Assembly (NCBI GenBank): GCA_937125135.1
Contig: CAKZLD010000074.1
Location: 1 to 57,114, forward strand
Direction: 5' to 3'
Source: an uncultured Ignavibacterium sp.
Lineage (GTDB): Bacteria > Bacteroidota > Ignavibacteria > Ignavibacteriales > Ignavibacteriaceae
DNA length: 57,114 nt
The notes below the pieces were generated by a model. It was given only the letters and a program-made list of their open reading frames with translations. It ran no database searches and was not told the origin of the DNA. Position numbers and translations under genes: made by a program. Shown here piece after piece: positions 6,286 to 55,849 of the stretch. Within the stretch, counting starts at the first letter, position 1. Every line of letters starts with the position of its first letter.

Positions 6286-6322
6286 AAAAAACAGGAATCC
6301 CATTTCTGAGATTCCTGTTTTG
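6286..6322 (-). terminator. Rho-independent terminator of the six-gene secretion operon
   Basis: ACAGGAATC at 6291-6299 pairs with GATTCCTGT at 6310-6318, with extra A-T pairs at the base and a 10-base loop. On the minus strand the stem is followed by a run of seven T. It lies just after the stop of the T9SS propeller gene at 6342 and before the stringent-response gene, so it separates the two transcription units. The A-run on the other side would let it work in both directions. Confidence 0.88.
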
Positions 6323-6341
6323 TAAACAACATTTAATGATA

Positions 6342-7631
6342 TTATTTCATTAGGGTCATTTTGTTAGAAATTCTTACTCCATTTACATTAAGTTGATAAA
6401 CATAAATTCCTGAAGAAAGCTTGGATGCATCAAAATTAACTGAATGCTCTCCTGCCATTTTTTCGCCGTCAACTAAAGTCGCGACTTCATTTCCAAGCAT
6501 GTCATAAACTTTAAGAGTTACATATCCATTTGCGACTAATGAATAATTTATTTTAGTTGAAGGATTAAATGGATTGGGATAATTTTGAGATAATGTATAA
6601 CCATTAACGACAAGCTGTCCCTCATCTTTTATCCCTACTGTTTTTTGTGCTCTTTGCATCAATGGTAAGCCTGACCCACCAAAGCAACCGAAATATGCAA
6701 TATTTCCATCAGGGCTAAAATCAATTCCTCGCGGTCTCTCATTTGGACTTAATGGTGTTACAAATTCCCATTTCAAACTATCGGTAATTTGATTAGTTGT
6801 TAAATCATATTCATACCAAGTATTTACTGAATATGGATAGAAACTTGAATCAGGACGATCATTCATTGAACCAGCAGCAACCCAAAGCCTTCCGGTTGCT
6901 CTATTTCTGGTAATTGATTCACAAGCAACTCCATTCATTATTGTTCCGACTGAGTCAAATGGAGCAAATTCATTTGGTCTCTTATAAACTAAGATTAATT
7001 TTCTAGTGTATGAAGGAAAATAAACTGTATTTCCATCAGGACTACATTCAATACTTCTTGAGAAACCAGTAGGGAGCAAAGTAGTAACATTACCAACAAA
7101 ATTGAATTCAGAATCAAATTCTTTAATTGGTGCACCAGCATTAACAACAGGACCAACAAAAATTTGTCCAGTATTGCTAACTGCAGGAGCAGTTGGTGAA
7201 GTTCCTATTGCAACATTAACTTTCTTCATCCCTGCACCAGTTTGGTAGTTAACTCTATACATTAATTGGTTTCCGAATACCATAAGAATATTACCATTAT
7301 GGTCTGTTCTCATTCCTCTCATATTGGAACCCTTTAGAGTATCATTAAAATCAGGACCTGTTAATCTCCAAATTGGAGAAAATGAAGCTGGAGTTCCGTC
7401 AGGATTATAAACTCTGATTAAATTAGCTGTAACAGAATCAGTAGGACCTCCTCCGGGAGGAAGGAATCTTTCAGGGCTAAAATTACCTGCCCACACTTTT
7501 CCAGCTGGATCAACAGCAATTCCGTGAAGTTGCCCTAATACTGTATTGTTTGGCCAGGCACCAGTATTAACCCATTGACCGAAGGCAAATGAGGTTAAAA
7601 GTACAGAAAAAACAAATAATTTTTTTAGCAT
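6342..7631 (-). CDS. Secreted beta-propeller protein with T9SS type A sorting domain
   Basis: A 429-residue secreted protein. It has a signal peptide (about residues 1-18, ending SFAFG), then propeller-like repeats with blade motifs such as DHNGNIL, SPDGNTVYFP and SPDGNIAYFG. After a linker comes a C-terminal T9SS type A sorting domain of about 80 residues beginning NYPNPFNPSTKINYSL and ending SGIYVYQL through KMTLMK. The sorting domain means export across the outer membrane by T9SS and probably surface attachment. The AAGGAG ribosome site precedes ATG at 7631. It is the last gene of the TonB-receptor operon. The propeller ligand is unknown. Confidence 0.85.
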   Translation of the reverse strand: MLKKLFVFSVLLTSFAFGQWVNTGAWPNNTVLGQLHGIAVDPAGKVWAGNFSPERFLPPGGGPTDSVTANLIRVYNPDGTPASFSPIWRLTGPDFNDTLKGSNMRGMRTDHNGNILMVFGNQLMYRVNYQTGAGMKKVNVAIGTSPTAPAVSNTGQIFVGPVVNAGAPIKEFDSEFNFVGNVTTLLPTGFSRSIECSPDGNTVYFPSYTRKLILVYKRPNEFAPFDSVGTIMNGVACESITRNRATGRLWVAAGSMNDRPDSSFYPYSVNTWYEYDLTTNQITDSLKWEFVTPLSPNERPRGIDFSPDGNIAYFGCFGGSGLPLMQRAQKTVGIKDEGQLVVNGYTLSQNYPNPFNPSTKINYSLVANGYVTLKVYDMLGNEVATLVDGEKMAGEHSVNFDASKLSSGIYVYQLNVNGVRISNKMTLMK

Positions 7632-7662
7632 AGCGTTCTCCTTAATTTATTGAAGTAATTAG

Positions 7663-8868
7663 TTAGTTGCCATAATTTGGTGCTCCGTTTTTGAGCATAT
7701 TTAAACGTATAACTGTCTGCTCCATATTTGTATCAGCTTTTCTGATAAAGTAAAGGAACTGTCCCTGAGGCCAATAAAAAGATAGAACATCAGTTGCAGG
7801 AACTACCCCTGGATAAAAATCAGATGCAGTTCTATCAGGTTTAATTTCTATGATTGGATCTTTCTTTTTATTTGTACCCAAATATAAAAATCCATCTGCA
7901 CTAATTGTCATAGTATTAATTGTTACAGCAGGATTTCTTGCAGAAAGATTGAAATACTCCTCTTCTGCTCCTAAATTACCATTTGAATCAACCACAAACC
8001 TCCAAACTTTTTCAAGATTATCTCTGGCTCCTGCAACATACAAATATCCATTAAAATATCTCACTGCCCTAAGATTACCGACAAAATTGTAGGTGGATGA
8101 AGTTAAATCAGGTTTAACTTTTATGATAACATTATTATTGCCAACTGCCCAAACATTCAAATTTTGATCCCAGTCAAAATCCCAGACTCTTGTCCCAGTT
8201 GGAGTAATTGCCCAAGGAGCGACTGAAGGAGGAGTATTTTGTAACATTTTCCAAACACCTCGTAGATTCCTTGCTCCATAAACATCACCATTTGAAGTCA
8301 ATTTAATGGTATTCCAATAAGATTCTGCTCCTTTGGGAATATAATCCGACATTACTCTTGAGGAAATCTTTTTAATTCCTTTCCCATCCAATGATACTAA
8401 AAGATCACCATTATTGAAGGCTGTAACAGCCCATGGAATATCTCCCACTTTAGGATCAAAAGGATATGGAATATTTATTGGATTCTGGATAGCATAAATG
8501 AATGTGTTACTTATATTCTCATTTTTGTGAACAGTAACTCTAACTTTTACACTGTCTCCAAAAACACTTGAAGGTGGGATAACATCTATCTTCGTATTTG
8601 AAGAACTCAGAACAGAACCCTTAACTCCGTTGAAATAAACAAAATTCTCATTCGCATTTGGAGAAAAATTACTTCCATTTATTGTTAAAGTAGAAAAACC
8701 TGCTAATGGAGTCGAAGTAGAGGATGTAATTGAAGTAATTGTAGGAGATGCTCCTGCTGGAGTAACTAAATTATATAAGCTCGGCTCTGGATCTTCGGAA
8801 CAACCAATTAAGAATGTTATAAACACAAAGCCAAGTATTATAATCAGTGAATTGTATATTTTTTTCAT
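7663..8868 (-). CDS. Lipoprotein with IPT/TIG domain and propeller-like region
   Basis: A lipoprotein signal ends in the lipobox LIGC with Cys23, counted from ATG at 8868. An IPT/TIG immunoglobulin-like domain follows (about residues 43-120, with ITINGSNFSP-like spacing in TLTINGSNFSP and VYFNGVKG). The rest (about 140-400) has repeated short beta motifs, such as SNGDVYGA and SADGFLYLG, typical of a propeller. I prefer ATG at 8868 because GAGAG lies about 9 bases upstream and the Lys-rich signal starts there; the in-frame ATG at 8883 is an alternative. There is no catalytic motif. It is co-transcribed with the PorV-like gene and the T9SS cargo, so a surface or outer-membrane partner role is likely. 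Confidence 0.8.
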   Translation of the reverse strand: MKKIYNSLIIILGFVFITFLIGCSEDPEPSLYNLVTPAGASPTITSITSSTSTPLAGFSTLTINGSNFSPNANENFVYFNGVKGSVLSSSNTKIDVIPPSSVFGDSVKVRVTVHKNENISNTFIYAIQNPINIPYPFDPKVGDIPWAVTAFNNGDLLVSLDGKGIKKISSRVMSDYIPKGAESYWNTIKLTSNGDVYGARNLRGVWKMLQNTPPSVAPWAITPTGTRVWDFDWDQNLNVWAVGNNNVIIKVKPDLTSSTYNFVGNLRAVRYFNGYLYVAGARDNLEKVWRFVVDSNGNLGAEEEYFNLSARNPAVTINTMTISADGFLYLGTNKKKDPIIEIKPDRTASDFYPGVVPATDVLSFYWPQGQFLYFIRKADTNMEQTVIRLNMLKNGAPNYGN

Positions 8869-8886
8869 AAAATTTACTCTCATTTT

Positions 8887-9900
8887 TTAATATCCAATAT
8901 TGATTGATACACGATGCACTTTATTAAATATTCCAAAAGGAGTATAAGAATAATCCACTGCAAATTTTATATCTGCTAATGACTGCATAAATCCAACTCC
9001 TGCACTGAACTCTTGTTCATCGGTAGGATATGTATATCCTGCACGAAGCGAAATTGATTTTAGAAAAGTATATTCCATTCCAAATGAAATTTGCTCAGGA
9101 TAATCTCGTGGGTGTGATGCATCAGCAGAAAGAATTAGTGAATGCATATTCTTATCAATTTCTACCAAATCAAGCACATCCATTGATAAACCAATTTTGA
9201 ATATTAACGGAAGTTGAAATGATTCCTGAACATATTTCAATTCTTTTGAGAAGTTTCGGATATTCATACCAAAGTTCAAACTCTTAAAACCTGTTTGATA
9301 TAAAATACCAAAATCGAAGGCTAAAACATCAAGTTTATATTCTTTTACAATTCCATCACCCAGAGGATTAAAACCAACTACTGCAGTACCCATAGATTGA
9401 CGGACATATTTGATATTTCCACCAACATAAAATTTTTCTGATAGAGCTTTCGCATAACCAAGTCCCAGAGCAATGGCAGTAGGTTTATATGTACCCACAT
9501 CAATATAACCATCATCGTTATTAGCTAAGATTGTTCCATTAAACTCGCCATAATCAACTGCGACAAGCGATAAACCAAAAACTCCATATTGACCATCCAT
9601 AAAATTCAATGCTGCGGTTCCATAAATGTAATTGATATCTGCAATCCATTTAGTAGTACCAAAAGAATAATCAACAGATCTATCCATTTTTGCCATCGTA
9701 GAGGGATTATACAACATTGATGCAGATGCATTTGAGAGTGAAGTAACAGCATCGCTCAAACCAGATGAGCGAGGGTCGAGTGATACACTCAGAAACTTCA
9801 TTCCGGTTTGCGCCAATTTCTTTCTTTCCTGAGCAAAAGATGAATCAATAGCTGAAAGAAATAGTAAGCAAACCAACGTTAATAATGCTATTTTTTTCAT
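8887..9900 (-). CDS. PorV/PorQ family outer-membrane beta-barrel protein
   Basis: A 337-residue outer-membrane barrel. A signal peptide ends at FAQ (about residue 23). The family start LAQTGMKFLSVSLDPRSSGL and the SASMLYNPSTMAK segment, characteristic of PorV/PorQ and related FadL-like proteins, follow. The rest is alternating beta strands and the protein ends in a short aromatic strand (VSINIGY). In well-studied T9SS, PorV carries cargo from the translocon to the attachment complex on the surface. Its place between two lipoproteins and next to a T9SS cargo gene suggests a cargo-specific version; that is inference. Confidence 0.85.
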   Translation of the reverse strand: MKKIALLTLVCLLFLSAIDSSFAQERKKLAQTGMKFLSVSLDPRSSGLSDAVTSLSNASASMLYNPSTMAKMDRSVDYSFGTTKWIADINYIYGTAALNFMDGQYGVFGLSLVAVDYGEFNGTILANNDDGYIDVGTYKPTAIALGLGYAKALSEKFYVGGNIKYVRQSMGTAVVGFNPLGDGIVKEYKLDVLAFDFGILYQTGFKSLNFGMNIRNFSKELKYVQESFQLPLIFKIGLSMDVLDLVEIDKNMHSLILSADASHPRDYPEQISFGMEYTFLKSISLRAGYTYPTDEQEFSAGVGFMQSLADIKFAVDYSYTPFGIFNKVHRVSINIGY

Positions 9901-9931
9901 TTTATACCTATAAGTTTACAAAATTTTAATT

Positions 9932-10840
9932 CTATTTAACTAAATCAACTTTAATTACTGCTGATCCCTTTGGATAGCTTACATTTTTAAGTGTCATTGA
10001 ATATGATTTCTGACTAACTGCATCAGCAGGAATATTTGCTTCATACAAAACTAAACCAGGAGTATTACCTCTTGTACTACCATCATTAATTTCCAAACTA
10101 ACAAAAGATTTTGCTCCTCTTAAATTAAGTGGGAAAGTAAATCCACTTGGGGCATTGTTAATGAAATCTTCTCCAGGGAAAGGAATTGAAGCAGCAGTAG
10201 CAGAATAACCGTTAAATAAATCAGCTGCTTTAGGATTTCTAAATCTTCCAGTAGAAAGTTTATTACCATTGACTTCTATCCAACCTTCATAAATCCAACC
10301 AGCAAATAATAATGGAATATTTAATCCTGCGACAGTTTTATTCACATCCACTGAATCAACAAACCAGATTCCGCCATACGGATTAGAGGCTAAATTTCCA
10401 TCCGTCGGAGTATAAAGAGTATATTTTGCAGAAGTCTGACTAAAATCTTTGAAAGTTTCTCCTAGCGAAAGATTGCATAATCCATTAACAAATCTACCGG
10501 ATAACACAATTCTACTACTTGCAGTAAAATTAGTTGCAGTCAACTGACTTTTACGTTCAACAGTAACTAAAAAAATCTGAGCACTATCTAAATAAGCAAG
10601 TTTCTGTTCCTCTTTGAAAAATACATCTCCCTGAGAATTCGGCGATAATTGTTTGATAAAAACAGGAGGTCTGTCGTCTGTATCAAACCATGCAACGTAT
10701 GTTAAAGTGTCATTTAACTTGGGTAATCCAGTTATATTTAATTCTAATGAGGATGAATTAATAGTAGTACTATTTTCAAAATACTCGCATCCCCAAAAAG
10801 AAATCATTGATACTGCAAGAATTAAAAATAATTTTTTCAT
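9932..10840 (-). CDS. Lipoprotein with duplicated beta module (unknown function)
   Basis: I do not recognise a named family. The signal peptide ends in SFWGC (Cys18), suggesting a lipoprotein. Two similar modules follow: one around residues 48-95 (W51, ending IFLVTVE) and one around 181-252 (W187, NGNKLSTGRF, ending SFVSLEIND). Both resemble, in pattern only, the C-terminal domain of anti-sigma-K-like proteins. ATG at 10840 is the likely start, because AGGAAGG lies about 8 bases upstream; a longer in-frame extension to 10873 would overlap the preceding gene. It does not resemble SusD. It sits between a large secreted protein and the PorV-like barrel. Confidence 0.7.
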   Translation of the reverse strand: MKKLFLILAVSMISFWGCEYFENSTTINSSSLELNITGLPKLNDTLTYVAWFDTDDRPPVFIKQLSPNSQGDVFFKEEQKLAYLDSAQIFLVTVERKSQLTATNFTASSRIVLSGRFVNGLCNLSLGETFKDFSQTSAKYTLYTPTDGNLASNPYGGIWFVDSVDVNKTVAGLNIPLLFAGWIYEGWIEVNGNKLSTGRFRNPKAADLFNGYSATAASIPFPGEDFINNAPSGFTFPLNLRGAKSFVSLEINDGSTRGNTPGLVLYEANIPADAVSQKSYSMTLKNVSYPKGSAVIKVDLVK

Positions 10841-10856
10841 CTGTATTGCCTTCCTG

Positions 10857-12929
10857 TTATCTAATGATTGCAAATTTTTCTATGACTGTTTCACCAGTGT
10901 TGTTGTCAGTTATAACTGCGAGATAAATACCACTGACAACTATCTGATTAGAGGAAGTTACATTGTACCAATAAGCATCTCCACTTCCCTTGTGTTCAAT
11001 TGTATTAATTAATTCACCCAATTCAGTATAAATTCTGATTGTACAATTAGAAGGTAGATTGTAGAACGAAATTTTATCATCATCATACCTTCCGTAATAT
11101 CTGAATTTAGAATCAATCACGTAAGGATTGGGCACAATTCGCACATTCTTCAAATTACTAGCTGGTGGTCTTTTTAACGTAACAGGACTATAAGTTTGAG
11201 TATAAACTCGATGACTTTCAAGTTTTCCTGCAGGTGTTCCAGGACCACCTGGTTGATCGGCACCAACAGCAGTTATGAAGTAAAAATAACTGAAGCCGCG
11301 AATAGGAGTTACATCATCAAAGCTTCTTGCTGAACCGGGTAGTTCGGCAATGAGTACAGGATCTTTATAAAAATCTTCCTGCTGTCTGTAAATTCTGAAA
11401 CTCTGTGGAGGATTTGGATCAGAACCATCAATGGTCCAAGAAAGAGAAATTCTATCTCCCAAACCTTGAACGGCAAATGTTTGTGGTGGTCTTGGAGGCT
11501 TTGGGATATTATAACCGGATTGGAAATTTTCTTTCGCTCTTTGGAATGTTTGGAATAGTTTAATTCTTCCACTGTCAATAACTGCTTTATTTTTATCATA
11601 AGCAGAAATTACGCCAGCCTTGAATAATCTTCCAATTCTTATTTGTTCTGAGCGACTCAAACCATTAGCTCCCTCTACCAATACGATTCTTATGCTTTGA
11701 CCAGGAGCTAATGTGTAAGGGCCATAACCATTATTAAAAGAAAATCCACCAGTATTTCCAAGATTTGGATTTGTCCTTTGATTTGCAAAATCACCGCTTG
11801 GTTCAACAAGATCTGCATGACGTGGGCTTTGATGACCACTTTTCATATATAAGTATTGGTCTGTCATTCTTGGAATATTAAATGCATTATCTGATCCACC
11901 CTTAAATAAAATATCATCTGAATCTAAATAATTAGTAGTTGAAGGTTGAGAAGGATCATCTGATTTATCTGTAGCAGATTTATCAGCGTGTAAGGTAGCT
12001 ACACCGATAAATTGAGTTCCCCCTAATCTTCCAATAGTATCGTCAGGTGTATTAAACCTAAGGGAATTTGCATTAAGTGTCCAAATGGGTGCACCAATGT
12101 TATCATAAGTAACATCTTTCTCGCCTGTAAATCCATGCCAAGAAAATTGAGCTCGGAATTGCTCTCCAACTGGATCGGGTTTTACACCATCACCACGAGC
12201 GTCATTCATTGTATTTTTTCCCCAACCAGTAGAATTACCAATTACAAATCTTGTTGAGGCATTTATAGCGTTTCTGTAAGTCCAGAAAACATACAAATCT
12301 TTTACTGTATTATTAGGAAGCTCAATATCAGGATCACCATCTGTATTTCCAGTATTAGTAAATTTATATTCATAAATGAAGTAATTGTCGTGATATTGTT
12401 GAGAGAATTGTAGTATTCTTCTCTCCATAGTAACACCAAGTTGAGTATTGACAACATTTAAGAGCATTCTATCTGCTTTTAAAGTGTCAGTAACAACATC
12501 AACATTAACAGGTTTATCATACGTCAGATTACCATCAACTGTTACTAAAGGTACATCGAATTGACTATACATTACCATTTTAATTGGGTAGGCTGCGTAG
12601 AATACAGGGCTTCTTGGACCAACAGTAACAACTTTGTATGGGAATGAATTTCCATTTTCATCCGTAAAGTCTTTACATCCAATCCACCAACCTCTTGCAG
12701 CTTGCATATCCTGATCTTTATAAATTGCAGGCCATTGCATTCCGTATTGTTGTCGTCTGACAAAGCCTTCTTCAATTTCGCTCCCTATTTCAGAAAACCA
12801 GCTGTGAATATTACTTGCAGACATCCACACATTTGTAAACTGAGCATTAACTTTATAGCTTGAGATAAATAAAAACAAAATTAAGAGGATCGGATAACTT
12901 AAATTGATTTTTGATAAGTGCATTCTCAT
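10857..12929 (-). CDS. Large secreted protein with fibronectin-like region and T9SS-like C-terminus
   Basis: A 690-residue secreted protein. The signal peptide (about residues 1-29) ends at VNAQ. The long N-terminal region is rich in aromatic and Asn/Gly residues with no recognised enzyme motif. Around 480-570 there is a fibronectin type III-like domain (ISLSWTIDGSDPN, SFRIYRQQ, YFYFITAVG). The C-terminal 90 residues have VRIVPNPYVIDS, a beta-sandwich with TIRIYTELGELI, and SGIYLAVITD near the end. This resembles T9SS sorting domains but diverges from the NYPNPFNP type. GAGGAAAAA precedes ATG at 12929. It directly follows the TonB receptor gene, so it may be its surface partner or a cargo. 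Confidence 0.75.
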   Translation of the reverse strand: MRMHLSKINLSYPILLILFLFISSYKVNAQFTNVWMSASNIHSWFSEIGSEIEEGFVRRQQYGMQWPAIYKDQDMQAARGWWIGCKDFTDENGNSFPYKVVTVGPRSPVFYAAYPIKMVMYSQFDVPLVTVDGNLTYDKPVNVDVVTDTLKADRMLLNVVNTQLGVTMERRILQFSQQYHDNYFIYEYKFTNTGNTDGDPDIELPNNTVKDLYVFWTYRNAINASTRFVIGNSTGWGKNTMNDARGDGVKPDPVGEQFRAQFSWHGFTGEKDVTYDNIGAPIWTLNANSLRFNTPDDTIGRLGGTQFIGVATLHADKSATDKSDDPSQPSTTNYLDSDDILFKGGSDNAFNIPRMTDQYLYMKSGHQSPRHADLVEPSGDFANQRTNPNLGNTGGFSFNNGYGPYTLAPGQSIRIVLVEGANGLSRSEQIRIGRLFKAGVISAYDKNKAVIDSGRIKLFQTFQRAKENFQSGYNIPKPPRPPQTFAVQGLGDRISLSWTIDGSDPNPPQSFRIYRQQEDFYKDPVLIAELPGSARSFDDVTPIRGFSYFYFITAVGADQPGGPGTPAGKLESHRVYTQTYSPVTLKRPPASNLKNVRIVPNPYVIDSKFRYYGRYDDDKISFYNLPSNCTIRIYTELGELINTIEHKGSGDAYWYNVTSSNQIVVSGIYLAVITDNNTGETVIEKFAIIR

Positions 12930-12960
12930 TTTTTCCTCATTATTAAATTCTTTTCGATGA

Positions 12961-15900
12961 CTAAAGATTAATGTTTAATTTAAATCCAAAGAAAATATTT
13001 CTGGGATTTAAAAATGCTGTATAATGTAAATTTGGATTATCTATATATGCTTTTTTATCTAAAGCATCTTTGACTTTATCGTTGCTAACTCTATTCCAAT
13101 TACTACCATTCCACTGATAGAATAATCCTGTTTCAGCATCATAATACCAAGCACGAGTATTTGGATTTTTAACTTCATATATCTTGGCAGCGTATTCCAT
13201 AGGCTGATATCCAATACCAAAATCCCTGAAATCACCAGGCTTATCATTCCCTGGAATATTTCCATAATTGAAATCTTTAACTTTGTCTGCTGGTAAATGC
13301 AATGAAGCCATATAATCATAATAATCCTGTGCATCAGCAAAGCCTGCCTGAAAACCCATATATTTTATATTTAATGCATTATAAACATCCATAAAAAATT
13401 CTAATTCTACACGACCGAGATTAATTGTTTTTGAGAATCTTAAATCAAGATTAACAAAATCTCTCCATTGAATATTGTTCTCATAACCAGCTTTCACAGG
13501 TCCAGGACCCGTCCAGCTAAAATATGAACCAGAACTCCAGCTACCTAGAAGATTCAATCTCCAATTTTCTAAAATTTTAAAGCCACCTAACTCTGGTCCC
13601 CAACCTTTAGGTGTAAAAATATCAATATTAGCTCTAGCATAAGGAGCAGGAACAGGTTTATTTTGGTAAAGAAGTTTTGTATCTCTTTTTTCTTGCTGAG
13701 CTCTTTGTGGATCTTCATAATAATTTGCCAAACCGAAGAAACCAGTAGTTCTAACCATATAAGTATAGTTTAGAAATCCTGTAATCCATTCCCCTCTGTT
13801 TTTCCTTATTTCAATTTCAAATCCTCTGATGTCTTCATAGCTGTTAGGTTCAGGAATCAGATAGTTTACGTCTCCAGCTCGGCTTAGATATCTCACAAGT
13901 CTTGGCTGATCTGATACATCTTTATAATATCCTTTTAATGATAATAAAAACTGATCGAATAGATTTTGTTCGTAACCTAATTCATAAGCAATTGTGCGAG
14001 GTAAAGGATTTGATGGATTAGCAATTCTTTGTACTTCAAAAGTTGAAAGTGATCTTCTCAATAAGAAAAGATTTTCTGGAACCGGCATCGAGCGGAAATG
14101 TCCATAATTAAAGTACAATTTACTATTAATTGTGATTGGAAAAGCAATTCCAATTCTTGGAGAAATATTTAATTGCTTTTCAATTGGAACTTTTTCTAAT
14201 AATGTATCTATTCCACCGGCAAATTTGCCAGAAAGGGCTTTATTGTATGGATCAAATTCATACCATTCGCCACCAGGATCAGAATAGTCAAGTCTCAAAC
14301 CAAGATTTGCAATCATTCCTTCAAATTCAAGTTTATCCTGAGCATAAACTGCTAATTTTTTAGGAAATGTATGCCAGGATGATATTGCATTATTGGAAGG
14401 AAGAGATGGTTCAATCAAACCGTAATTGACATTATTATCTGTGTAGATGAATTCAAATCCTGTTTTAATATAATTGTATTTATCTAACTGACTAGCATAA
14501 TCAAACTTAAAAGTATAAGTAGCTAATCTACTTGTATCTCGTGAATTACTGAATCCAAGTCCCATATTCATAGCAGAACCGATTCCGGAACTGGCACCGC
14601 TAAAATATCCGAAAGGAGATTCATCGTAAAAGTTACCACCGATTTTGTATTTTTTTGTGGTATCTCTCCGAGTTCCGGTATTAGTGTTATATGCAAATGC
14701 AACTCTACTGCCTAAAACTTCATAAAAGGTTTGAGCACTTAGTACGTGAGTGAATTTAAATCCTTGCATATTAGTTTTTATTTCGCTTGGATTCCAATAT
14801 TCGGGGGCATAAATTCTTGAATCGAGGTAACTTGCACCACTTCTTGAGTCAAGTTGGCTTGCAATTCCAGAAGCGGATCTGAATAATCCAGGTCCTCCTG
14901 CTCTACTGCTATTTGTTCCGGTTTGTTTTCCCATTAAACCTTCAATGTTTAATTTCATCCCTGTCATCAAATCCATAGTAAGTCTAAGTTGACCGTTGTA
15001 ATCTTCATAAGCATCTCGTGAAAGAGGTATGTAATACATTTCTCTTGTAGTTCTGTACGAAGCAACGAACCTGAGATTTCCAAGATATTCTCCACCGGGA
15101 ATTGGACCGCTTAAACTCATATCAACATCGTAATCAGGTTTTTGAATATCTAATTGTCTCCTGTGTTGCCAAAGGAATAATTCCTGTGCACCTTTAGGAG
15201 AGAGATCATTATTTGGATCTGAATCACCTAACAGAGCTTCAGATACTTTATTCCAACCAGTAGGAAATTTCATATACTGCCTTTTAGTATAGATATCCCA
15301 ATTGCCATTATCTGTGCCTGTCCAAGCAACAGCATCATCAATAAAAGGTCTGATCCAATACGAATTTGGAGAATTAGCTGCATCACCAAAATGTTTACGA
15401 CCAGCCGGGCGATATCTTCCTATAAAAGAAAAATTGTATTTATCTTTTCTACCTTCCTTAGTAACAACATTTATCAATCCAGATCGAATATTTCCGTATT
15501 CAGCATTAAATCCACCGGTTTGAATCTGTAATTCTTCGATTGATGTAAAACTAATTCCAGTGTAAGGTGTATTATCTCTTTCATCTCTGAGAGTGATTCC
15601 ATTAACTACAAAAGCTGTTTGATCACTACCACCACCACGGATTGTTAATCCTTGCACTCCAGCTTGAAGGCCAATAATTCCGGTTACACTAACAACGGGT
15701 AAGCTTTTAACTTCATCAATGTTAAGATTCACAACGCTTGATGATACATCCCGGCGTACCACCGGTTGTTTTGCAACCACAACAATTTCTTCAGTCTGAA
15801 TACTTGATGATCTCAAACTGAAATTTATTTCGGTTGTAAGATTAATATTAACTCTAACGTCCTCTATTATTTGAGGAGCATAACCAACCATTGAAGCTCT

Positions 15901-16113
15901 TAGAGTGTAAGTTTTAGGAGGGACACTAGTTATTACATAATAACCGTCTATATTTGTCGCCGCACCTAAATTTGTTCCATCTATAATAATGTTTGCTCCA
16001 ATGAGTGCTTCTCCGGTTTCCGAATCACGAACAACACCATTTATTTTTCCTGTCTGTGAATGTGATATAGATGTAAAAAGGAGAAGAATTAGAAGCAGTA
16101 GAAGTTTTCTCAT
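12961..16113 (-). CDS. TonB-dependent receptor with N-terminal carboxypeptidase-like regulatory domain
   Basis: A 1050-residue outer-membrane receptor. The signal peptide (residues 1-20) is followed by a CarboxypepD_reg-like domain (about 22-110, GKINGVVRDSETGEALIGAN). A plug domain comes next (about 130-235, including GVQGLTIRGGGSDQTAFVVNG), then a 22-strand-type barrel ending in a typical terminal strand (FFGFKLNINL). The general architecture matches SusC-like and other Bacteroidota TonB receptors, but no SusD-like gene follows. AAGGAG lies 7 bases before ATG. It heads the six-gene operon and has a strong promoter upstream. The imported substrate cannot be told from the sequence. Confidence 0.9.
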   Translation of the reverse strand: MRKLLLLLILLLFTSISHSQTGKINGVVRDSETGEALIGANIIIDGTNLGAATNIDGYYVITSVPPKTYTLRASMVGYAPQIIEDVRVNINLTTEINFSLRSSSIQTEEIVVVAKQPVVRRDVSSSVVNLNIDEVKSLPVVSVTGIIGLQAGVQGLTIRGGGSDQTAFVVNGITLRDERDNTPYTGISFTSIEELQIQTGGFNAEYGNIRSGLINVVTKEGRKDKYNFSFIGRYRPAGRKHFGDAANSPNSYWIRPFIDDAVAWTGTDNGNWDIYTKRQYMKFPTGWNKVSEALLGDSDPNNDLSPKGAQELFLWQHRRQLDIQKPDYDVDMSLSGPIPGGEYLGNLRFVASYRTTREMYYIPLSRDAYEDYNGQLRLTMDLMTGMKLNIEGLMGKQTGTNSSRAGGPGLFRSASGIASQLDSRSGASYLDSRIYAPEYWNPSEIKTNMQGFKFTHVLSAQTFYEVLGSRVAFAYNTNTGTRRDTTKKYKIGGNFYDESPFGYFSGASSGIGSAMNMGLGFSNSRDTSRLATYTFKFDYASQLDKYNYIKTGFEFIYTDNNVNYGLIEPSLPSNNAISSWHTFPKKLAVYAQDKLEFEGMIANLGLRLDYSDPGGEWYEFDPYNKALSGKFAGGIDTLLEKVPIEKQLNISPRIGIAFPITINSKLYFNYGHFRSMPVPENLFLLRRSLSTFEVQRIANPSNPLPRTIAYELGYEQNLFDQFLLSLKGYYKDVSDQPRLVRYLSRAGDVNYLIPEPNSYEDIRGFEIEIRKNRGEWITGFLNYTYMVRTTGFFGLANYYEDPQRAQQEKRDTKLLYQNKPVPAPYARANIDIFTPKGWGPELGGFKILENWRLNLLGSWSSGSYFSWTGPGPVKAGYENNIQWRDFVNLDLRFSKTINLGRVELEFFMDVYNALNIKYMGFQAGFADAQDYYDYMASLHLPADKVKDFNYGNIPGNDKPGDFRDFGIGYQPMEYAAKIYEVKNPNTRAWYYDAETGLFYQWNGSNWNRVSNDKVKDALDKKAYIDNPNLHYTAFLNPRNIFFGFKLNINL

Positions 16114-16206
16114 ATTTTAACTCCTTTAGAAAGATTAGAAATGCGATGATTGCAAATTAGTTTATATATCATTTTCAATTGATATTTTAAAAATCTTTAT
16201 ATAAAA

Positions 16207-16234
16207 AGTATATAATATTAAAATAATTGTCAAT
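16207..16234 (-). promoter_or_regulatory. Predicted promoter of the TonB-receptor operon
   Basis: On the minus strand TTGACA (16229-16234) and TATACT (16207-16212) are separated by 16 bases, about 95 bases upstream of the receptor start at 16113. The same stretch also contains TACTTTTT with a TTG about 20 bases before it, which fits the TTTG/TAnnTTTG pattern of Bacteroidota promoters. The intergenic region 16114-16258 holds nothing else recognisable apart from the ribosome site. Confidence 0.6.
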
Positions 16235-17836: not shown

Positions 17837-18769
17837 ATGAAAATACTTCTCTGTCTAATCGCATTTCTGATTTTTCAGTGTCTTCTTTTCCCGCAACAAA
17901 ATCCCGTTAAATTATTTGGTGATGAAAATGACCCGATTCTCGGTCCTACTTTCTCTCCCGATGGACGATTCATCGCTTTCTCAAAATCAAATTATATCGG
18001 AATATATGTTTATGACATCGAAAACAAATCAATCAAACAAATAACAGACGAATTAGCGGCTGGCTTTGGTATTCAGTGGTCTTCTGATTCTCGATACATC
18101 CTTAGCAGACCGGCTTATTACGAGGATAAAATCAGATATAATGCTGTTAAGATTTATGATATTCATACAGGAGAAGTAAATCAATTAACTGATTACAGAA
18201 CAAAGATGCCATCAATGCCCTATTGGTCACCAAGTAATGATGAAGTAATTATTGCTTCAAAAGGTAAAGTAGAGTCATTTGAATCAGGCATTGAAACAAC
18301 ATCAGGACAAACTAAAGCAAAAAACGATAATGTAATTTTTTTAATTGATGACAAAATAGCAGTTAAAAATTCAAGTAACGGTGAAGTTAAAATTTTTGAA
18401 CCCTTAAAAGGTAAAAAATGTATGAATTTAGCTGTCTCTCCGGACAATCAAAGAGTTGTTTTTGAAATTTATGGCGGAGATTTGTATTCAATGAAAACTG
18501 ATGGGACTGAACTAGTTAATTTAGGTAAAGGCTACAAAGGTAAATGGTTAAAAGACTCTGAAACAATTGTGTATATGATTTGTGAAGATGATGGATATAC
18601 ATTCACTTATTCTGATATCTTCTCAATCAGATATGACGGTACGAACAAAAAGAATCTTACTAATACTCTCGATCTTCACGAAATGAGTCCATCAGCTTCT
18701 TATGCGGACAATACAATAGTTTTTGAAGTTCTGAACGAAGGATCAATCTACTTAATGAAAATAGATTAA
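17837..18769 (+). CDS. Exported TolB-like/PD40 beta-propeller protein
   Basis: A 310-residue protein with a signal peptide (about residues 1-20, ending FPQQ). A propeller of WD40-like PD40 repeats follows: FSPDGRFIAFSKS, WSSDSRYILS, YWSPSNDEVIIASK, VSPDNQRVVFEI and a final blade with SPSASYADNTIVFEV. Such propellers bind proteins or glycans and are common in periplasmic partner proteins such as TolB. The gene lies 11 bases before the amidase gene and on the same strand, so they probably form an operon. It may help locate or recognise cell-wall material for the amidase, which is inference. Confidence 0.82.
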   Translation: MKILLCLIAFLIFQCLLFPQQNPVKLFGDENDPILGPTFSPDGRFIAFSKSNYIGIYVYDIENKSIKQITDELAAGFGIQWSSDSRYILSRPAYYEDKIRYNAVKIYDIHTGEVNQLTDYRTKMPSMPYWSPSNDEVIIASKGKVESFESGIETTSGQTKAKNDNVIFLIDDKIAVKNSSNGEVKIFEPLKGKKCMNLAVSPDNQRVVFEIYGGDLYSMKTDGTELVNLGKGYKGKWLKDSETIVYMICEDDGYTFTYSDIFSIRYDGTNKKNLTNTLDLHEMSPSASYADNTIVFEVLNEGSIYLMKID

Positions 18770-18780
18770 TAGGAGTTTTT

Positions 18781-21249
18781 ATGAAATACATTATTAATTT
18801 ATTGTTCTTCTTTGTTCTCACATTATCATTAAATGCACAACAAGTTACCGGTCTATCAAATTGGAATATCTATCTTGATCCCGGACATAGTCAAAAAGAA
18901 AATATGGGTGCATATGGATATTCCGAAGCAGAAAAAGTTTTAAGAGTCGGACTTAATCTCAGACAAATGCTTTTGGATTGGACAGATATTGACACAGTAT
19001 ATATTTGCAGAGAAGATGACTTTGTTCAGGTTTCTTTGGCTCAAAGAACAAGTCAGGCAAATGCGCTTGGTGCAGCTCACTATCACTCAATTCATAGTGA
19101 TGCCTCTTCATCTCCGGAGCCGAATAGTACTTTACTTCTCTGGGGTCAATTGGGTATTAATGGTCCGGAAAAATTTCCTCCTGGTGGTAAAGCAATGAGT
19201 GATATTATGATAGTTTTATTAACGGCAGGTTACAGAACTACATCCCGTGGTTCTGTCGGAGATAGGACTTTTTATGGCGTACCAGGAAATACTCCATACT
19301 TATGGGTTAATCGAGAAACAAACATGGCTTCTCAATTAAGTGAAGCAGGATTTCATACGAACCCTACTCAGAATCAATTGAATATGAATGCAAAGTGGAA
19401 AAGACTTGAAGCACTCACTTTCTACTGGTCAATTCTAAAATATAAAAATGTTCCCAGACCATATGCTGGAACTGTTGCCGGGATTATAAGAGATTTCGAA
19501 TCCAACAAAGCTATTAATGGTGCAGTCATTTCGATTAACGGACAAATAGATACTACCGATACTTGGGAACGATTATTTCACCTTTACTCAAATGACCCTG
19601 AATTGTTAAGAAACGGATTTTATTATTTTGAAAATATTCCACCTGGAACTCATCAAATAAAATATTGGGGTCCCTGGTATGATACATTAACAACAACAGT
19701 TACTATGAGAGACACATTTATAACTTTCAAAGATGTAACATTAATTTCTCGGCGTCCACCAACCGTTGCTTCAACAGTGCCGGTTAATAACGATAGCTTA
19801 TATCCCGGTAATGACCCCATAATTATAAATTTCACAAGACAAATGGATAGAAATTCAGTTCAGAATGCTTTGCAGATTTCTCCAAATGTTAATTATACTG
19901 TTTCGTGGTCAAACAATGATCAAAGACTCACAATTACTACAAATAATTTTTCATTTAATACTCAATATCAAATTACAATTCTCGGAACTGCTTTAGGAAA
20001 ATTTGGACATCAATTTGATGGAAATGGTGATGGTACTCCTGGTGATCCATATACTTTTAATATTAGAACAAAATTTCCGGACACCACTCCTCCAATGCTT
20101 GTAGGAATTTATCCAACACCAAATTCAAATAACGTTGAACTAAGACCTATCATTAATTTTGCTTTTAATGAACAAGTTAATACCTCTACGTTATCGGGTA
20201 AATTTAATCTGATTCGAAATTCAAATAACACTAACGCTAATGGAATTTTGAGACACTATGTAGTAAATAATCGAAGTGTCATTAATTTCTTTGTTACAAC
20301 ACCATTAGTTGAAAATGAAACTTATACAATGAACTTACTACCCGGCGTTCAAGATATTTTTGGAAATCAAATCACTAATTCAATTAATCATATTTTTACT
20401 ACAGGAGTAAACACATATAATCAGGTTAATCTAATTGACAATTTTGAAAATGGAATCACTAACTGGCTACAACCTACTGGTTCCGGTTCAACTGTTGGTG
20501 TAATTCCCGGACAGACAAATGCTGCTCTATCAACAACAGTATTAAATGTTAATACTGCCAGTACAAGATCAATGCAATTAAACTATGCTTGGGAAACAAG
20601 TGCTTCATCTTGGTTATTAAGACAATTTTTTAATCCTGTTACTCCAACGTTTAATAATGATGTAATTCTTCAGGCATTCATTTTTGGTGATGGTTCGAAT
20701 AATAAATTCAGATTCTGTGTCAACGATGCTGGTCCCGGTGGACACGAAGTTAGTCCATGGTATAACATAGATTGGATTGGATGGAAATTGGTAAATTGGA
20801 ATTTATCTCAAGGGCAAACAGGAAACTGGATTGGGAACAATATTCTCGAGCCTCCTTTGAGTTTTGACAGTTTTCAATTAACATATACGCCAGGAGGAAA
20901 TTCAACCGGGACAGTTTACTTTGATGATTTAAGAACTGCTACTTTTTCACCAGTTGGAGTTGAGAAAGAACCTTATGAAGTTCCGACAATATTTGCATTA
21001 GAACAAAATTACCCCAATCCTTTCAATCCAAGCACGAAAATAAGATTTTCAATTCCCGAAGAAACACACACAAAAATTATTGTAAGTGATATTTTGGGAA
21101 GAATCATCAGAACTCTGGTTGATGAAAATCTCTCAGCAGGGACTTATAACATTGATTTCGATGCAAGTAATCTGCCAAGTGGTGTATATTTTTATTCAAT
21201 CATTACAGATAAATTTAAAAGCAGCCGCAAAATGATGTTAGTCAGATAA
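18781..21249 (+). CDS. N-acetylmuramoyl-L-alanine amidase with T9SS sorting domain
   Basis: An 822-residue exported peptidoglycan amidase. The signal peptide ends at NAQ (residue 20). The Amidase_3 domain (about 28-220) keeps the zinc ligands H36 (in DPGH), E51 and H105 (SIHSD) and the catalytic E188 (SEAGF), so it should cleave the bond between muramic acid and L-alanine. After it come a carboxypeptidase-regulatory-like domain (about 228-320), two Big_5/SbsA-like Ig domains (about 325-545) and a beta-sandwich (about 550-720). A T9SS type A sorting domain (NYPNPFNPSTKI to KMMLVR) closes the protein. The sorting signal sends it to the cell surface or medium. GGAG precedes ATG. Confidence 0.88.
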   Translation: MKYIINLLFFFVLTLSLNAQQVTGLSNWNIYLDPGHSQKENMGAYGYSEAEKVLRVGLNLRQMLLDWTDIDTVYICREDDFVQVSLAQRTSQANALGAAHYHSIHSDASSSPEPNSTLLLWGQLGINGPEKFPPGGKAMSDIMIVLLTAGYRTTSRGSVGDRTFYGVPGNTPYLWVNRETNMASQLSEAGFHTNPTQNQLNMNAKWKRLEALTFYWSILKYKNVPRPYAGTVAGIIRDFESNKAINGAVISINGQIDTTDTWERLFHLYSNDPELLRNGFYYFENIPPGTHQIKYWGPWYDTLTTTVTMRDTFITFKDVTLISRRPPTVASTVPVNNDSLYPGNDPIIINFTRQMDRNSVQNALQISPNVNYTVSWSNNDQRLTITTNNFSFNTQYQITILGTALGKFGHQFDGNGDGTPGDPYTFNIRTKFPDTTPPMLVGIYPTPNSNNVELRPIINFAFNEQVNTSTLSGKFNLIRNSNNTNANGILRHYVVNNRSVINFFVTTPLVENETYTMNLLPGVQDIFGNQITNSINHIFTTGVNTYNQVNLIDNFENGITNWLQPTGSGSTVGVIPGQTNAALSTTVLNVNTASTRSMQLNYAWETSASSWLLRQFFNPVTPTFNNDVILQAFIFGDGSNNKFRFCVNDAGPGGHEVSPWYNIDWIGWKLVNWNLSQGQTGNWIGNNILEPPLSFDSFQLTYTPGGNSTGTVYFDDLRTATFSPVGVEKEPYEVPTIFALEQNYPNPFNPSTKIRFSIPEETHTKIIVSDILGRIIRTLVDENLSAGTYNIDFDASNLPSGVYFYSIITDKFKSSRKMMLVR

Positions 21250-54610: not shown

Positions 54611-55849
54611 CTATAAACTATATAATAAGCCAATTGATAAAACAGTAGCATTTATATTGTAAACCCCATTGAAAGGAGTGTTCCCTGTTATATAATGTTT
54701 GGAGTTTTCAACTTTTAATTCATTTCCTCTTATGTAAAGAAATGAACCTCTCAATGAAAGATTATCCATTAACTTGTATTCTGCCCCAATAGTAAAACCA
54801 ATTCTATCTGTTTCCGGCAAAGATGGAGCGACCATATCATCATCAACAGGTTTTTTATCATAATAAACTCCACCACGAATGGAAAAATCATCTGATAATT
54901 TGTAATCCGTACCAAATCTGATAACAAAACTATTATGATAAGATCTCGGACTTGCAATATCCGGATATGCAGGATCAACAAAATCTACTTTCAAAGTATC
55001 ATAGCTTGACCAGCCGACATATTGAAAATCGGTACTAATTAACCAATCTTCTGTTACATGATAAGCTGCACCAATAGCAAGATTGAAAGGTGTTTTTAAT
55101 TTAGCAACTACATCACCCATAGGAAGTCTTTTTGCATCCAATAATTGCTTTGCTCCCTCAGTAGTTGCAGAACCATTGAAATCATAATCAATATTGCTTT
55201 GGAAAGCTGCACCCAAAGTTAAATCTTCAGTAGCTTTATACATCAATCCGAAGCTGAAACCGAAAGCTGATTTATCTTTTCCTTCTAATGAAATTTTCGC
55301 ATCACCCTCAAATGGAGTTTGAGAAACTTTTTGTCTGATGAGAACATTAGCGAAACTAAAGACAAAACCAGCACCAACAGAAAGATCATCAGTAATTCGG
55401 TATGAAACAGTTGGAGTTAGAGTGAAAATTTGAAGTTCTGTTTCAAGTGCCAAATATCTTCCGATCCAATTATCATCCCATTTAGTACCCAAACCAAACG
55501 GAACGGTAAATCCAATACCTGCTGCCCAATTCTCGTCGAAGCTATGAGAAGCAAAAAAGTTTGATGGATAAAAAGTCCTTTTTGCAACTTTGAATTCTTC
55601 AACACTTGGGCTAATGCCACGAAATCCTGTTGATGGAGAAACAAAATGTGAACTGAACATAAAGTTAGTTCCTTTAATGTAAGATAATCCGGCAGGATTC
55701 CAATATACTGCACTTGGATCATTCGCAACTGCAGTAAAAGCTCCGCTCATTCCTGATGCTTTGGCTCCATGTTGATTAAGTTGAAAACCACCAGCAAAAG
55801 TCAGAGAAGTGAAGCAAAGCAATAATGCGAAAAAAGTAATTTTTCTCAA
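54611..55849 (-). CDS. OmpP1/FadL/TodX family outer-membrane transporter
   Basis: A 412-residue barrel. The signal peptide ends at FAGGF; the mature protein starts GFQLNQHGAKASGMSGAF and continues with NDPSAVYWNPAGLSYI, the FadL family hallmark where the N-terminal hatch plugs the barrel. Strands continue to the C-terminal SIGLLYSL. FadL proteins take up long-chain fatty acids or hydrophobic compounds. The start is TTG at 55849, with a strong AGGAGGA site. A 14-base palindrome lies upstream at 55871-55884. Confidence 0.92.
   Translation of the reverse strand: MRKITFFALLLCFTSLTFAGGFQLNQHGAKASGMSGAFTAVANDPSAVYWNPAGLSYIKGTNFMFSSHFVSPSTGFRGISPSVEEFKVAKRTFYPSNFFASHSFDENWAAGIGFTVPFGLGTKWDDNWIGRYLALETELQIFTLTPTVSYRITDDLSVGAGFVFSFANVLIRQKVSQTPFEGDAKISLEGKDKSAFGFSFGLMYKATEDLTLGAAFQSNIDYDFNGSATTEGAKQLLDAKRLPMGDVVAKLKTPFNLAIGAAYHVTEDWLISTDFQYVGWSSYDTLKVDFVDPAYPDIASPRSYHNSFVIRFGTDYKLSDDFSIRGGVYYDKKPVDDDMVAPSLPETDRIGFTIGAEYKLMDNLSLRGSFLYIRGNELKVENSKHYITGNTPFNGVYNINATVLSIGLLYSL

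Follow-up and report, generated by a model that had tools for sequence, protein, structure and literature searches.

In SusC/SusD systems, which occur in many copies per genome, a TonB receptor carrying a CarbopepD_reg domain precedes a binding protein of the cell surface. Among surface proteins of the T9SS in P. gingivalis, PorZ is held by PorQ and PorU by PorV, with their C-terminal sorting domains (CTDs) left uncleaved (PMC5562754, PMC10202324). Cognate barrels have been proposed in a review to shield such CTDs from cleavage (PMC10202324), and what leaves some CTDs uncleaved is treated as an open question in the literature (PMC10202324, PMC11285876). Type A CTDs are reported to be all recognized by one PorV, with specialized shuttles assigned to type B substrates (PMC12618676). 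In the latter case, PorP/SprF barrels are reported to anchor the type B proteins (PMC9143113) and the shuttle gene lies directly 3′ of the type B gene (PMC12618676).

Here, we analyzed a six-gene operon (6342-16113, minus strand) of an uncultured Ignavibacterium sp. in a window of 57,114 nt, that is, the whole stretch of contig CAKZLD010000074.1 (assembly GCA_937125135.1) under study. Genes A to F are separated by 3-31 nt (Table 1), and their original prediction as one operon with one promoter and one terminator is borne out by these small gaps, the conserved putative promoter and the hairpin with its T-run. An ATG start was chosen for gene C, since the listed TTG start at 10873 results in an overlap with B. 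An Rfam scan of the window gave no matches.

Table 1. Features of the operon and its surroundings, in window positions.
Feature	Position	Strand	Basis or remark
Gene A, TonB-dependent receptor (TBDT)	12961..16113	-	CarbopepD_reg N-terminal domain and Plug
Gene B, 690-aa secreted protein	10857..12929	-	Fold model and PorZ-tail match
X-type C-terminal sorting domain of B	10860..11141	-	X profile comparisons
Gene C, optional lipoprotein	9932..10840	-	ATG start; two beta-sandwich regions in model
Gene D, PorV/PorQ-family outer-membrane barrel, cassette clade	8887..9900	-	NF033709 and tree
Gene E, lipoprotein, IPT/TIG domain and propeller-like repeats	7663..8883	-	Position after barrel conserved
Gene F, propeller-like secreted protein, canonical type A T9SS tail (6345-6581)	6342..7631	-	
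Intrinsic terminator	6288..6321	-	15-bp hairpin and T-run, 3′ of F
Putative promoter TTGACA-17-TACTTT, 5′ of TBDT gene	16205..16233	-	Position kept in window and six relatives
T9SS-tagged N-acetylmuramoyl-L-alanine amidase (Amidase_3), outside operon	18781..21249	+	Kept beside operon in genus

Every one of the 41 genomes surveyed first has a relative of B, which in about 28 of them is a full-length or near full-length orthologue, and in the loci that we read the arrangement A-B-D-E-F is shared by three families of this bacterial order. Scanning named genomes added Ignavibacterium, Stygiobacter electus, Melioribacteraceae, Rhodothermales, and Balneola sp. EhC07; two contigs labeled as Calditrichota/Caldithrix MAGs (L149, L169) also carry the unit, with mis-binning possible. 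When the neighbors of 87 distinct B genes were counted, A was found directly 5′ in 78/83 and D next in 76/86, with D and E after B in 67/83 and D, E, and F in 54/76, several of the misses being ORF-calling failures in G+C-rich contigs. Median intergenic gaps in the relatives were 15-53 nt. The A-B-D-E-F order is well above chance expectation, and its predicted conservation in Ignavibacteria was confirmed. Gene C is optional. Its position between B and D is confined to the window's genus and its close relatives; in other genomes its homologue adjoins the TBDT gene or is missing. S. electus and Balneola sp. EhC07 have the operon of B but no C in it. A fold search with the model of C, which has two beta-sandwich regions, returned no informative match. 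The variable presence of E, F, and C speaks for the alternative that the genes are merely co-regulated surface functions whose products form no complex. A strict order with small gaps across several classes, unlike that of loosely kept neighbors, makes this alternative very unlikely.

The six-gene operon itself, originally put forward as the system, did not prove to be the unit. Rather, the unit is a trio, or cassette, of a TBDT, a secreted protein with an X-type CTD (described below) and a PorV-like barrel, which recurs up to nine or more times in a single genome and is spread over many of the phylum's classes. The trio is widespread, and the operon is one member of a larger family. This family is apparently undescribed; in the open-access literature on PorV, T9SS, and paralogues (subscription papers being outside its scope), our search met no title or abstract describing the trio.

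The secreted proteins of the trio are alike mainly over their last ~100 residues, which we term the X-CTD, with the consensus VRVVPNPY...F.NLP..C.I.IYT..G.L..TI.H..GSG...W....S.Q.V.SG.Y.........KF.II(K/R). At the same loci, ordinary T9SS cargo has a tail with the type A consensus QNYPNPFNP...KVYD.LG.EVATLV...SGVY.Y...KKM.L(M/L)K. Measured from the PNP motif, X tails exceed type A tails in length (median 94 vs. 78 residues, p 3e-19). For P. gingivalis, lengths of 67-88 residues are given for cleaved CTDs and of 96-108 residues for uncleaved CTDs (PMC11285876), from start points that differ from those of our X and type A measurement. A barrel gene was found at most two genes after an X tail in 65/75 cases and after a type A tail in 0/109 (Fisher 1.7e-39), and the exceptions include sets with the barrel 5′ of A, or with X a few genes off within the operon. 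In a complete relative genome (G005) with at least 150 type A tails, the X profile gave nine strong matches (71-127 bits), all of them in the nine trios, and the next match scored 47 bits. In a further genome (G012), every X match of at least 84 bits belonged either to a barrel cluster or to a tandem run of X genes at even spacing behind one, and one weaker match (54 bits) was located in a cassette operon. The tandem X-CTD gene arrays of G012 stand behind a single barrel (L128, L130), and three of the four copies around L130 have identical profile scores. Separately, an exception to the X-barrel rule is conserved between genera: a subtilase-like protein of ~1400 aa (L233:7741-11943, L234:7658-11878) that ends in an X-like tail although a PorV-family barrel does not adjoin it.

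Because genes next to barrels served to train the X profile, its link with the barrel is partly by construction. Therefore, 20 strong matches were drawn from genomes of other classes outside the training set, and TBDT-X-barrel was present at 20/20 of these X loci, six of which also had E and F. Furthermore, NCBI models that are independent of the X profile assign a PorZ-like tail to X proteins from five different cassettes. This sample and the PorZ-tail matches are less exposed to the training bias. Of 198 genomes sampled from the phylum, 103 carry X-CTD tails (E <= 1e-12). One X protein (L106) also passes the type A model TIGR04183 (28 bits, cut-off 23).

Mirror-tree distances show that receptor, X protein, and barrel co-diversify (r 0.85-0.96, in all cassettes and in non-B cassettes). 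By partial correlation, the barrel-CTD pair (0.27) is no tighter than the receptor-CTD pair (0.39), so specific barrel-CTD recognition is unsupported by this comparison. The tightest correlation among the three pairs was that of receptor and barrel, as would suit a barrel that acts as an import channel working with the receptor, without a secretion role, while B is exported by the general PorV. PorV and FadL do share a fold, and D matches FadL (Toluene_X) weakly, but its match to the PorV family is far higher. Moreover, the barrel follows the CTD subtype in the counts given above, and receptor-barrel pairs without an adjacent X keep X in the operon (L045, L099, L112, L121). With these observations in mind, we regard the channel role as unlikely.

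D is a member of the PorV/PorQ family (NF033709, 206.5 bits vs. cut-off 90). To that extent it is the PorV/PorQ barrel that was predicted, but by NCBI cut-offs it is neither PorV (NF033710, 82 bits vs. 250) nor PorQ (NF033711, 81 bits vs. 220). The possibility that D is the genome's general PorV was rejected. Five other cassette barrels, from G005, reached 61-91 bits on NF033710 (cut-off 250), and the positive examples of that genome scored 267 bits (true PorV, L098; NF033710) and 260 bits (true PorQ, L104; NF033711). The closest solved structure to D is entry 6h3i, which we take to be F. johnsoniae PorV. G005 has one SprA-bearing gene and 13 barrels above the family cut-off, comprising nine cassette barrels, one true PorV, one true PorQ, one PorV2-like barrel, and one from a tandem pair. 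Its cassette barrels are encoded downstream of a TBDT gene and of one for a large secreted protein, or in the same operon as the latter, and its true PorV adjoins a 1331-aa CTD protein, presumed to be PorU, whose tail score falls between the X and type A classes. More generally, PorV-family matches numbered 10-41 per genome, and SprA_N gave a single match in 38 of the 39 genomes having it, the remaining genome adding a second, weak match. In the source genome, whose assembly is 92% complete, 7 of the 10 above-cut-off barrels sit in trios and the true PorV was not found. In a maximum-likelihood tree with weak deepest branches, the cassette barrels form a clade separate from PorV, PorQ, and PorV2, and one group of pair barrels falls inside or beside the cassette clade. 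Tandem pairs of divergent PorV-family barrels were observed behind a ~520-aa CTD protein and without a TonB receptor (L052, L108, L117, L129). A FadL/TodX-family barrel at 54611-55849 of the window, a separate porin, is a weak PorV-family match.

B also carries a sorting domain, of a different type from that of F. In the AlphaFold2 model of B (pLDDT 86, pTM 0.83), residues ~27-475 are predicted to form a GH94/GH116-like, sugar-phosphorylase-like beta-supersandwich, followed by FN3 (~484-560) and the X-type sorting domain (~597-690). Fold matches reached Z ~18 over 250-285 residues at an rmsd of 3-4.5 A. Enzymes such as GH94 phosphorylases and GH116 have a beta-supersandwich at the N-terminus; B lacks their catalytic (alpha/alpha)6 barrel. 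The periplasmic domain of YidC has a beta-supersandwich fold as well, and fold likeness alone is no proof that B binds sugar. A Pfam scan of B gave no family match, nor did Pfam find named domains in the other X proteins, so a sequence-based common substrate theme does not emerge among them. Foldseek matches of the B model include the PorZ structure 5m11, and the tail of B resembles that of PorZ (NF052228, E 2e-9, NCBIfam). Nevertheless, B fails PorZ membership, with 36 bits over the tail only vs. a cut-off of 260 and a supersandwich instead of two propellers, and it is under the type A threshold (TIGR04183, 17 bits vs. cut-off 23). Type B/PorP membership was likewise rejected because neither B nor D matches the type B tail TIGR04131 or a PorP/SprF barrel in NCBIfam up to E 1. 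Two B homologues (L200:5636-8977, L206:42-3458) carry an additional domain at the N-terminus, which by eye resembles a sialidase, and end in a canonical type A tail in place of the X tail; the former has no adjacent receptor or barrel, and the latter is contig-truncated. With n = 1 to 2, these homologues hint at a natural swap of tail type.

The tail of F meets the type A model (TIGR04183, 37 bits, cut-off 23). Because it is of this type, and type A tails precede cassette barrels in none of the 109 cases, F is probably exported via the general PorV, and D is best read as serving B alone. The comparative data support the prediction of a dedicated PorV-like barrel tied to an uptake receptor, with the difference that the barrel would serve B and not F.

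Receptor A has a Plug domain (PF07715, 25.1 bits, cut-off 23.9) and is below the SusC threshold (TIGR04056, 87 bits vs. 368). As anticipated for a TonB receptor without a SusD partner, no SusD is encoded in the operon. PF07980, the one SusD model used, found SusD in 0/4 genomes searched and detected the Bacteroides positive control. With the receptor under the cut-off and SusD not found, SusC/SusD membership was rejected. In G005, 9/22 Plug-bearing receptors (about 40%) are inside trios.

Wall enzymes are often encoded near the operon. T9SS-tagged GHL10 genes lie near it at 34/87 loci and Amidase_3 at 10/87, the window included. Genomes have 0-10 GHL10 genes, and GHL10 was found within ~10 kb of B in 12 of about 24 B-bearing relatives vs. 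roughly 2% expected (binomial about 1e-13, hand count). The window's amidase belongs to a divergent pair (17837-21249) with a PD40/DPPIV-like propeller protein, and this pair stays beside the operon in the genus. Elsewhere, 2-3 consecutive GHL10 genes come after a second TBDT-X-barrel cassette with an X protein distantly related to B (L051 [G000:C99], L105, L126), and a third cassette type has a T9SS-tailed M23 peptidase directly 3′ of the barrel (L102:10013-11101). We take the DigH protein of E. coli to be a member of the GHL10 family. DigH digests denuded peptidoglycan strands at division (PMC12288456). These data are consistent with an alternative in which the cassettes build or remodel the envelope (peptidoglycan, division, or surface layer) and the receptor senses or recycles wall fragments. 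However, the enzymes are T9SS-tailed and so presumably act extracellularly, on foreign walls or debris, most cassettes lack a wall enzyme, and gene content varies; an envelope role therefore seems improbable to us. Since GHL10 and Amidase_3 genes often lie near the operon, peptidoglycan debris is a candidate ligand, albeit a rather doubtful one.

By analogy with PorQ-PorZ and PorP/SprF-type B pairs, the cassette barrel could be the shuttle and anchor of its upstream neighbor. We consider it reasonably probable that D is a private shuttle and anchor of B's X-CTD in an outer-membrane uptake unit that works without SusD. B would be exported by the single SprA translocon via its X-type CTD. D, rather than the general PorV, would receive this domain and leave it uncleaved, so that B would stay fixed to the surface via the barrel. 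Adjacent to receptor A, B may bind or present a ligand, possibly a glycan, which A would import. E and F would be accessory surface proteins, F being exported by the ordinary PorV route. The genes and their conserved order, the one-to-one association of the X-CTD with the cassette barrels and the receptor, the lack of PF07980 in four genomes, and the predicted fold of B are observations. We infer barrel-CTD binding, lack of cleavage, receptor contact, import, and ligand alike, and hold the import function and the ligand with less confidence than the mechanism. A broader and more tentative proposal is that of a TonB machine with a private barrel, where a T9SS-exported lid or binding protein replaces SusD, many sets per genome depend on one SprA, and type A-like CTDs, rather than all using one PorV, are split into a general class that is cleaved and a private class that is not. 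If true, the trio would be a third way to build a TonB uptake machine and a possible replacement of SusC/SusD, which suggests that SusD-poor Bacteroidota/Ignavibacteriota may import surface material via trios. Since the trio offers many PorV-like barrels with PorZ-like CTDs against ordinary cargo in the same cell, the questions of PorV exclusivity and CTD retention are directly testable on it.

Compared with known systems, the trio shares with SusC/SusD (RagAB) a CarbopepD_reg TonB receptor followed by a surface protein and many genomic copies, but it has no SusD, its receptor is paired instead with a T9SS-tagged protein and a barrel, and this receptor is under the SusC cut-off. Like PorV-handled type A cargo (PMC10994853), the X-CTD has a lysine near the C-terminus, and F is ordinary cargo of this kind; unlike such cargo, the X-CTD is longer and tied to its own barrel clade, and B is under the TIGR04183 cut-off. 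As in PorP/SprF-type B pairs, the barrel gene is directly 3′ of the CTD gene, paralogous pairs are many, and the barrel would serve as anchor (PMC12618676, PMC9143113). In contrast, the CTD and barrel families of those pairs are different, and their CTD proteins are adhesins with no upstream receptor gene reported. Finally, the trio resembles PorQ-PorZ and PorV-PorU (PMC5562754) in pairing a family barrel with a CTD protein that would remain on the surface with an uncleaved CTD, and B's tail resembles that of PorZ. Those pairs, however, are single-copy sortase machinery with no link to a TonB receptor, whereas B lacks the PorZ propellers and D is under both the PorV and PorQ cut-offs.
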